64,000 nucleotides of DNA from Bifidobacterium pseudolongum subsp. pseudolongum DSM 20099 (GTDB lineage Bacteria > Actinomycetota > Actinomycetes > Actinomycetales > Bifidobacteriaceae), in assembly GCF_000771225.1 (NCBI RefSeq), contig NZ_JDTZ01000004.1:1-64000 (forward strand), in the 5' to 3' direction. Position numbers and translations under genes: made by a program. The notes below the pieces were generated by a model, which ran no database searches, was not told the origin of the DNA, and was given only the letters and a program-made list of their open reading frames with translations. This document shows, in pieces, positions 11,477 to 43,342 of this stretch; positions within the stretch are counted from its first letter, which is position 1; each line of letters opens with the position of its first letter.

Positions 11477-11489
11477 GCTACGGGTAGTG
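11477..11489 (+). repeat. Dispersed intergenic repeat, single copy
   Basis: GCTACGGGTAGTG between manC and tRNA-Leu, about 75 bases upstream of the manC start. Confidence 0.7.
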
Positions 11490-11553
11490 CTTCCACGCCT
11501 GAGGATCACACAGAATCGTTGGAATATAACGGATTATATGGAAGGCATACGCG

Positions 11554-11594
11554 AAAAAACACTACTCGTAGCGAAGAAGGCACTACCCGTAGTG
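11554..11594 (-). terminator. tRNA-Leu terminator built from dispersed repeats
   Basis: Six bases past the tRNA-Leu 3' end the minus strand reads CACTACGGGTAGTG, a short spacer, GCTACGAGTAGTG, then TTTTTT. The two repeat copies can pair with each other or fold individually, and the T6 run makes an intrinsic terminator likely. Confidence 0.65.
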
Positions 11595-26423: not shown

Positions 26424-26978
26424 ATGACATCCTATCCTGCATCCAAGCCGGGTTCCCAGCGTCACACGCTGTCGGTGCTCGTGGAAAACCGACCGGGCGT
26501 GCTCGCGCGCATCGCCGGGCTGTTCGCACGCCGCGCGTTCAACATCAATTCGCTTTCGGTCTCACCGACCGAACGCCCCGATATCTCACGCGTCACCGTG
26601 ACCGCCGACGTGGAGGATGTGCCGCTCGAGCAGATTATCAAGCAGCTCAACAAACTGCTCCATGTGCTCAAGATCGTCGACCTCGACCCCGCCACGACAG
26701 TGGAACGCGAGCTCGTGCTCATCAAAGTGGCGGCCGACGAATCGAACCGCTCCGACGTGCTCGAGATCGTGCGCCTGTTCCGCGTGCGCGTGGTGGATGT
26801 GAACCCCGAATCGCTCACGATCGAAGCGACCGGCGCGGGCGGCAAGATTGACGCGCTGCTCGGACTGCTCGAGCATTACGGCGTCACCGAGCTTGTGCGG
26901 TCGGGCGCGGTCGCGATGACCCGCGGCCCACACGCGCTGAGCGAAAAAGTGGTCGGCTCGGAAATCACCGGCCGCTGA
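26424..26978 (+). CDS. ilvN: Acetolactate synthase, regulatory subunit
   Basis: 184 residues. It is the small subunit that raises catalytic activity and confers valine feedback. An ACT domain fills residues 12-90 (HTLSVLVENRPGVLARIAGLFARRAFNI), followed by the conserved carboxyl domain (ESNRSDVLEIVRLFRVRVVDV to YGVTELVRSGAVAMTRG). AGGGG precedes the ATG. It is co-transcribed with ilvB and ends at a terminator. Confidence 0.96.
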   Translation: MTSYPASKPGSQRHTLSVLVENRPGVLARIAGLFARRAFNINSLSVSPTERPDISRVTVTADVEDVPLEQIIKQLNKLLHVLKIVDLDPATTVERELVLIKVAADESNRSDVLEIVRLFRVRVVDVNPESLTIEATGAGGKIDALLGLLEHYGVTELVRSGAVAMTRGPHALSEKVVGSEITGR

Positions 26979-26986
26979 AACCAGCG

Positions 26987-27039
26987 AACGCCGTGCACCG
27001 TGCGCGGGGCATCCGCCCCCATGCGCGGTGCGCGGCGTT
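26987..27039 (+). terminator. ilvBN terminator
   Basis: A long GC-rich stem from AACGCCGTGCACC to GGTGCGCGGCGTT, nearly perfect over about 22 bp with a short loop, 9 bases past the ilvN stop. The T-run is short (TTCCTATAT). Confidence 0.75.
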
Positions 27040-27093
27040 CCTATATCGGGTGCCCCGTTCACCGTGGCCTGCGCACCGCTACATCTTTGTGGA

Positions 27094-27184
27094 TTCGCCG
27101 TTTGTGTCACTGTTTTCGCCGTTATCGTCACTTTTTAGCCGGATTAATGACGATAACAGCGAAAACAGTGACGTAAACAGCGAA
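27094..27184. repeat. Large inverted repeat, intergenic element locus A
   Basis: Two 37-base arms (27094-27130 and 27148-27184) match in inverse orientation at 33 positions, with a 17-base AT-rich loop. Each arm is made of two direct copies of a ~20-bp unit, TTTTCGCCGTTATCGTCAC-like. The same unit recurs at 35380-35454. It is AT-richer than the genes around it and lies between the ilvBN terminator and the amidotransferase promoter. It codes for nothing recognisable. Confidence 0.85.
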
Positions 27185-27232
27185 ATGCAGCCGGGTAGTA
27201 GGCGGACTCCACCGCCTCGTCCGGGCAGATGG

Positions 27233-27238
27233 CACAAT
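27233..27238 (+). promoter_or_regulatory. -10 box of amidotransferase, leaderless start
   Basis: CACAAT, 7 bases, then the ATG at 27246. Confidence 0.4.
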
Positions 27239-27245
27239 AGTGGCT

Positions 27246-27974
27246 ATGAGCAAACCGGAAGTTCTGATTCTTCAGCATGCGGCGTGGGAAAAACCCGGGC
27301 GCATCCTCACCGACCTCGAAGAAATCGAGCTGCCCACGCAGACGCTGAACATCACCACACACAAAAAACCGGACATGCCGGACTTCGACGAAGTGGCCGG
27401 CGTGGTGCTGATGGGCGGCCCCATGGGTGCGACCGACGTGGACGACTACCCCGGACTCAAAGCCGAAGCCAAACTCGTGCGCGCCGCCGTGAGCGTGGGC
27501 AAACCCGTGCTCGGCGTATGCCTGGGCCACCAAATCATCGCCACGGCGCTCGGCGCCAAACTCAAACGCAACTGCACGCCCGAAATCGGCGTGCTACCGA
27601 TCAAACGCATGGAACGCCACGACTACTTCTCCATGTGGAGCAAACAGCTCGACGTGCTGCACTGGCACACCGACGCCGTCACACTGCCCGAAGGCGCGCA
27701 GCTGCTCGCACGGTCCGCCGAAACCAAAGTGCAGGCGTTCCGCTTCGGATCGGCCCTCGGCATGCAATTCCACCTCGAAGTCACACCACAACTGCTCGAA
27801 GAGTGGCTCGACGAACCCACCATGGTCAAACAGCTCAAAGCGGCGGGCGGATCCAAATCCCAACTGCGCGACGCCTACGCCACGGTCTACGGCCAGCTGC
27901 AGCCGCTCGCCGAACAGGTGTTCTCTGGGTTCGCCGCGCGCTGCAACACCTACGCGCGCTCGCTCATGAACTAG
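27246..27974 (+). CDS. Class I glutamine amidotransferase-like protein
   Basis: 242 residues, a stand-alone GATase1 domain. The nucleophile is Cys92 in VLGVCLGHQ, the His-Glu pair lies in QFHLEVTP, and the oxyanion segment is VVLMGGPMGATD. It resembles the proteins annotated as GMP synthase glutamine amidotransferase domain, but there is no synthetase domain. The family includes small-molecule gamma-glutamyl hydrolases such as PuuD-like and YfeJ-like proteins. The partner or substrate is unknown. A GTG six bases earlier (27240) is an alternative start. Confidence 0.85.
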   Translation: MSKPEVLILQHAAWEKPGRILTDLEEIELPTQTLNITTHKKPDMPDFDEVAGVVLMGGPMGATDVDDYPGLKAEAKLVRAAVSVGKPVLGVCLGHQIIATALGAKLKRNCTPEIGVLPIKRMERHDYFSMWSKQLDVLHWHTDAVTLPEGAQLLARSAETKVQAFRFGSALGMQFHLEVTPQLLEEWLDEPTMVKQLKAAGGSKSQLRDAYATVYGQLQPLAEQVFSGFAARCNTYARSLMN

Positions 27975-35379: not shown

Positions 35380-35454
35380 TTTTCGCCGTAATCGTCACTG
35401 TTTTCGCCGTTTACGTCATAAAAACAGAAGAAAAGTGACCAAAACGGCGAAAAG
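35380..35454. repeat. Intergenic element locus B
   Basis: Two direct copies of the ~20-bp unit (TTTTCGCCGTAATCGTCACT at 35380 and TTTTCGCCGTTTACGTCAT at 35401) face one inverted copy (GTGACCAAAACGGCGAAAA at 35435). The second and third can form an imperfect 19-bp stem with a 15-base A-rich loop. It is the same family as 27094-27184 and lies between the ffh terminator and the next gene. Confidence 0.8.
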
Positions 35455-43195: not shown

Positions 43196-43342
43196 GTTAC
43201 GGGTAGTGCCTCCTCTGTTACGGGTAGTGCCGCCCTTTGTAGACTCCGGAATCTTTTTGTTACTGGTAGTGAAAAAGGCGCCAAAATATATCGTCTTTCG
43301 ATAAAAATACACTACCCGTAACAGGGATGCACTGCCCGTAGC
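43196..43342. repeat. Cluster of five dispersed repeats
   Basis: Three copies in one direction (43196-43208, 43217-43229 and a variant at 43259-43271) face two in the other (43310-43322, 43330-43342). Consensus GYTACGGGYAGTG. Opposed copies can pair across the AT-rich centre. The cluster sits between rsmD and the left end of the IS30 element. No ORF is supported here. Confidence 0.8.

Follow-up and report, generated by a model that had tools for sequence, protein, structure and literature searches.

What is the large inverted repeat located between ilvN and an amidotransferase gene of Bifidobacterium pseudolongum subsp. pseudolongum DSM 20099? It was pointed out in a first-pass annotation of the window (i.e., the whole stretch of DNA analysed, 64,000 nucleotides of contig NZ_JDTZ01000004.1), in which three identities were put forward: (i) a small RNA; (ii) a protein-binding array; (iii) the remnant of a miniature mobile element. 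The analysis reported here leads to a preference for the second, with a predicted protein.

The inverted repeat behind ilvN

The 37-bp inverted repeat downstream of ilvN is real: its two arms of 37 nt each are 89% complementary, are separated by a spacer of 17 nt and fold far beyond shuffled sequences. Each arm is built of two direct units, as first described; the period is exactly 21 nt (27094/27115 and 27148/27169) and not about 20 bp. The features of the locus are the following:

26424..26978, + strand: ilvN, acetolactate synthase small subunit (above curated cut-offs)
26987..27039, + strand: GC-rich hairpin behind ilvN, separate from the element (-50.3 kcal/mol)
27094..27184, no strand assigned: whole element, two head-to-head arms of two 21-bp units each
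27094..27130, + strand: left arm (16-mer units 27094-27109 and 27115-27130)
27131..27147, + strand: spacer, 17 nt, polar, with its T-run at the left here; flipped in the G034 ortholog
27148..27184, - strand: right arm, inverted (16-mer units 27148-27163 and 27169-27184)
27246..27974, + strand: glutamine amidotransferase-like gene (below all curated cut-offs)

Folded as RNA, 27085-27195 has a z value of -8.1 on the + strand and -11.1 on the - strand (0/200 shuffles as good); folded as DNA, 27094-27184 has a z value of -8.8. The unit consensus, TTCGCyGTTwtsGTCA, is not self-complementary. By reading of the copies, the foot is TTCGC/GCGAA.

An ilvBN terminator had been placed just upstream, the element being regarded as a separate structure. 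The hairpin at about 26987-27039 is indeed distinct from the element, and is possibly the end-of-operon structure of ilvN, but a scan of 26950-27300 found no T-tract terminator. When read by eye, the ilvN 3' gaps of relatives (L113-L116) also contain hairpin-like inverted repeats, of unrelated sequence; an end-of-operon hairpin behind ilvN may thus be conserved in place and not in sequence.

Distribution and genomic context of the family

The comparison used the genome of the strain itself (G000), a genus set of 112 genomes and a family set of 189 genomes, all drafts. The search of the genome for the unit, which had been suggested in the first-pass annotation, shows that the unit is not unique to this place. 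In G000, a DNA search returned 24 matches (for the most part, one place is matched on each of the two strands), and the unit pattern with 2 mismatches allowed gave 67 matches vs. 2 for the reversed-pattern control; both searches combined lead to 13 sites. Elsewhere, the number of sites (matches on two strands halved) is 12 in G034, 13 in G062 and 1 in G026. Another copy is found in the window, and its G034 ortholog has three right units:

35382..35451, no strand assigned: second window copy, two left units and one right, between ffh and an Exo_endo_phos-domain gene

The genus DNA search matched 5/112 genomes, among them G058 only by a weak 31-base match that corresponds to a short direct-repeat stretch. 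A covariance model built from 33 copies matched 7/112 genomes: G000, G034 and G062 (26, 24 and 26 matches, on two strands), G026 (2), G018 (27), plus G047 and G055, whose single weak matches are other hairpins. There are five carriers, i.e., G000, G034, G062, G026 and G018; the other 107 genus genomes have weak or isolated matches only. Some copies of G034 and G062 recur unchanged in LMG 11569 and 2093B, two records of B. pseudolongum subsp. globosum, and G026 shares identical copies with B. criceti. When 84,980 species genomes were scanned with a pattern blind to G018-type units, in a set that perhaps lacks the window's own record, 18 stretches were returned, all from LMG 11569, 2093B or B. 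criceti. In a search for a parent transposon with the same ends, the exact tandem-unit pattern is present in 4/112 genus genomes, only at element sites among the matches listed (the G018 arrays being sampled). The family was not found in the viral contigs, plasmids or phages searched. Seven of the 13 G000 copies are located on one 326-kb contig, and a bias in chromosome position was at one point suspected. It was also observed that the G062 contig NZ_RYUH01000002 (L018/L046) ends soon after an element copy, as if the palindrome had broken the assembly.

Genes were called with our own GC-frame script. Copies and arrays are intergenic, apart from short ORFs of low GC3 taken as spurious (L009 has them across the element; L088, L092 and L093 have them across arrays). 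Both neighbours could be assigned at 25 sites, and these are codirectional at 16, convergent at 8 and divergent at 1. Two of the 14 G018 stretches, L091 and L093, lack a called gene on one flank and do not enter this count. The neighbours scanned include ilvN, ffh, dgt/alr, ppc/Fic, araA, upp, two P-type ATPases, beta-glucosidase and malQ. Since these genes are functionally mixed, with no evident common pathway, a role in a single regulon was dropped. A protein of 344 aa encoded between two element copies (L013:3242-4276, contig C19 of G000) has no NCBIfam or Pfam match. The family is thus lineage-restricted, intergenic and dispersed in B. pseudolongum.

Changes between orthologous copies

Flank alignment places an element in G034 at 12/13 of the G000 sites and in G062 at 10/13. 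Gain or loss of units, homogenisation of arms and inversion of spacers are observed in the B. pseudolongum copies. From the alignments as read, the number of units varies at 7 or more of the 13 sites, in 21-bp steps where the steps are clear; at the ilvN site, G000 has 2+2 units while G034 and G062 have 2+3.

The spacer is polar (TTTTTnGCynGATT). Of the 11 sites that have full copies in at least two of G000, G034 and G062, 5 show it inverted from one ortholog to another. At four of these five sites, one or more flipped pairs are closer than the mean copy-to-copy difference (6.0 of 17). At C19_154090, inversion lowers the differences between the G034 and G062 spacers from 8 to 1 of 17. At C19_302804, the flipped spacers are no closer to each other than paralogs are, and a replacement by another copy is possible; at C19_152850, a clear polarity is lacking in the G000 spacer.

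The two arms of a copy agree at 90.4%, vs. 82.7% between copies (0/10,000 permutations as high). Within-copy agreement also exceeds agreement across orthologs (33.8 vs. 32.4 of 37, as means; this is not the case for every pair). In the alignment, 14 pairs are changed on both sides vs. 10.4 when shuffled, and there are 90 double-change cells vs. 38.7. Five of the 38 copies have an incomplete outer unit and were left out of the arm-agreement, alignment and spacer tests, as well as of the strand-mismatch and constraint tests given below. It must be added that arm co-variation in B. pseudolongum is also predicted by selection for the hairpin.

According to PMC8604942, template switching between inverted repeats yields homogenised arms and inverted spacers. 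As both are found in the B. pseudolongum copies, they are read here as the results of template switching; homogenisation is not seen in G018. The repeats of PMC8604942 likewise have homogenised arms and spacers inverted between related strains, but they are separate repeats in yeast coding genes whose inversions change 2-5 bp. Here, a 17-bp spacer is flipped at several sites of one dispersed bacterial family. SbcD was matched in 0/5 carriers; 90/112 genus genomes are also without a match, and a link between SbcD absence and the carriers was discarded because only 22/112 genomes were matched at all.

At C19_195041 (L019/L035), the B. criceti and G062 copies have 4/91 differences and the same spacer orientation; against the B. 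criceti copy, G000 has 12 differences and G034 has 14. The flanks of G062 and B. criceti are only about 87-91% alike. An exchange of this copy between species is possible.

Constraint on the unit

Variation within the arms is mostly at fixed unit positions, in outer and inner units alike. At sites shared by orthologs, the motif (TTyGCyGTT...) diverges by 2-4% and the rest of the arms by 15-25%. Near-invariant positions differ in 28/1104 cases vs. 144/598 for the remaining positions, a comparison for which the positions were chosen from the same copies, and which was therefore repeated on G034 vs. G062 with positions picked from elsewhere: 15/400 vs. 47/192 with positions from G000 only, and 5/224 vs. 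57/368 with positions from G018 only. This constraint is independent of pairing, as would be expected of an array of protein sites. The motif could also be conserved because a mobilising enzyme recognises it while the sites turn over.

The geometry is recurrent. In 37 clusters collected with spacing left free, the opposite inner units have their starts 33 apart, and additional units recur every 21. The collection of copies by their 33-nt centre is no independent evidence for this geometry; the unit-pattern matches and the spacing-free clusters are.

G018 has a diverged unit (TTTGCyGTTTTnnC...), organised in long arrays. Its neighbour spacings are ++21 (53), --21 (41), +-39 or 38 (33) and -+21 or 22 (25), others being rarer, and it contains 93 tandem unit pairs vs. 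5 for the control pattern. Any tandem pair at all is found in 9/189 family genomes; besides the five carriers, these are four with one pair each, namely G056, and G010, G156 and G171, which have no head-to-head element in the stretch read. Starting from 94 exact unit anchors in G018, a partner of at least 8/11 is present 48 times at -21 and 49 times at +21, vs. 0-6 of 94 at 20 other offsets; the motif was never required of the partner. On the other hand, the arms of 34 G018 modules pair like shuffled arms (0.716 vs. 0.714). Almost every one of their 68 arms has TT.GC.GTT, a conservation that is partly built in as the modules were picked with a mismatch-tolerant motif, the 94-anchor test being the unfiltered check. 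The modules come from 14 stretches chosen among the covariance-model matches, and one of the 34, overlapping a second one, is probably spurious. Since partners are found at +/-21 while the arms do not co-vary, the unit and the lattice persist in G018 although the hairpin does not.

A second family on a similar lattice

A second dispersed family, with CTACGGGTAGTG units, is found in the same B. pseudolongum genomes. Its units, too, repeat in tandem every 21 bp and are arranged head to head, the centre being mostly at 82 or 50 in the loci examined. Tandem CTACGGGTAGTG pairs number 62 in G062, 21 in G034, 14 in G000 and 1 each in G022 and G026; there are none in the other 107 genus genomes, G018 included, and the reversed control gives 0. 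The unit pattern locates two copies in the window:

11478..11592, no strand assigned: CTACGGGTAGTG-family copy
43197..43341, no strand assigned: CTACGGGTAGTG-family copy, head-to-head

By inspection, the two families are alike in architecture and unlike in sequence. As two unrelated unit sequences share one lattice, the 21-bp spacing would seem to matter in itself. In L058 (G000 C20:21000-22961) and L059 (C19:69000-71500), a ATGGCTGTTGGCGTCTGAG-like sequence was seen by eye beside single units of both families; it is possibly a third short repeat.

Comparison with mobile repeats

The element may be a non-autonomous mobile repeat of the REP/REPIN or MITE kind, which a trans-acting enzyme, recognising the units or the hairpin, once copied and whose copies are now mostly fixed remnants. 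This explanation is a serious one, although the balance is somewhat against it. The copies are dispersed, intergenic and in inverted pairs, as REPINs and REP-BIMEs are; the alternating-unit arrays of G018 resemble BIMEs; and only 1/25 assignable sites is a gap between divergent genes (a raw count). The units themselves are not palindromic, however, and the number of outer units varies, so that the ends are not fixed. In the copies read, no palindromic REP with an unpaired GTAG or CGTC end tag is found; CGTC occurs inside many units, in paired positions. A RAYT-driven element was considered and rejected: the search for the Y1 transposase family (Y1_Tnp, PF01797) matched 0/5 carriers and 7/112 genus genomes.

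The occupancy of the site was compared in relatives, as also suggested at first. The ilvN gap, as read, is without the element in G007, G018, G022, G026 and G039, so that a gain in the B. pseudolongum lineage is the simplest account; but these gaps are too diverged to set edges. None of the sites compared shows a clean empty site or a target duplication, and most G000 sites are shared with G034 and G062. Opposite one copy present only in G062, the G000 junction keeps the first bases of the element and looks like a deletion scar; G034 has a larger gap there. A mobile-element remnant is thus possible: dispersal and the probable gain at ilvN are in its favour, whereas the outer units vary in number and the comparisons made gave no target duplication, clean empty site or, in the carriers, Y1 transposase.

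With regard to known systems, PMC3116915 and PMC2817692 describe REPINs and REPs as intergenic and dispersed, with invariant 16-mers in inverted pairs, a less conserved spacer, compensatory changes and, in some genomes, ordered clusters. All this is shared by the present repeat, and the inverted 16-mers with compensatory changes (PMC3116915) speak for the mobile origin. The present repeat differs by (i) non-palindromic units, tandem at 21 bp; (ii) no GTAG at the foot; (iii) no Y1 match in carriers; (iv) about 13 sites and not hundreds; (v) G018 units without arm co-variation. The GTAG- and CGTC-tagged REP superfamilies (PMC3733652) are, like the present repeat, short dispersed palindromes, and the CGTC class likewise has no dedicated transposase. 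They differ by their size of 20-40 bp and their unpaired tetranucleotide tag; 'bifidobacteri' and 'actinobacteria' have 0 occurrences in the main text of that paper. The present repeat is REP/BIME-like in kind, yet a new variant. BOX elements of streptococci are modular intergenic repeats with a variable number of internal modules. They are alike in modularity and differ in sequence, module sizes and host; here it is the outer units that vary, around a constant centre.

RNA-level and neutral explanations

A function as RNA (i.e., terminator, mRNA-stabilising 3' hairpin or small RNA) is unlikely. The fold is very stable on both strands, the sites are mostly behind genes and the arms co-vary in B. 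pseudolongum, as would suit such a function. Nevertheless, the two window copies have neither a sigma-70-like promoter nor an intrinsic terminator (GC-rich stem plus T-run), and at the ilvN site it is the opposite strand that folds better. Counted on the transcribed strand at codirectional sites, the mismatches comprise 12 G-U, 20 A-C and 28 others (gene directions called in G000 being applied to its orthologs). The RNA explanation is weakened because these mismatches are not biased to G-U, and the G018 arms do not co-vary. At gathering score, Rfam 15 matches two tRNAs only in the window, and not the element; at a relaxed threshold, only eukaryotic miRNA-type hairpins appear, far below gathering score. 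The small RNA first proposed is not supported.

A family of neutral palindromes that slippage and template switching alone maintain, with no reader, is more improbable still: the unit-number changes, homogenised arms and flipped spacers are mutational signatures, and the lack of an SbcD match in carriers, shared with most of the genus, may mean that hairpins are tolerated, but neutral processes hardly account for position-specific constraint inside one stem or for G018 units that persist without arm co-variation.

Interpretation

The protein-binding array is the best supported of the three identities first proposed, by the constraint on the unit, the 21-bp lattice and the G018 units without arm co-variation; binding itself is a prediction. 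The element is one copy of the dispersed repeat of 21-bp units; we consider it an even matter whether these units are duplex binding sites for a sequence-specific protein. Each unit would be a candidate site, read in double-stranded DNA. The candidate protein would bind several phased units at once, the lattice corresponding to two helical turns; instead of serving one regulon, it would act on chromosome structure or on something close to the ends of genes. The hairpin behaviour would then be a mutational by-product of slippage and template switching, inversion and homogenisation probably arising from replication template switching at hairpin-prone DNA.

A wider proposal is rather doubtful: that, in bifidobacteria of this clade, at least two unrelated families of intergenic 21-bp arrays, of one architecture, are read by related putative proteins of different specificity organising the chromosome or insulating gene ends, the arrays being also hot spots of template-switch flips.

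In the open-licence literature, judged mostly from titles and abstract openings, no paper is recognisable as describing this repeat. Whatever the protein may be, the orthologous copies form a natural series in which homogenisation, gain and loss of 21-bp units and spacer inversion can be counted, within one bacterial species and in genomes without an SbcD match. If the units are protein-bound, they would represent a sequence-specific, chromosome-wide binding system in a common gut genus, absent from the open-licence literature searched, and the element would be a ready-made bait for the candidate protein.
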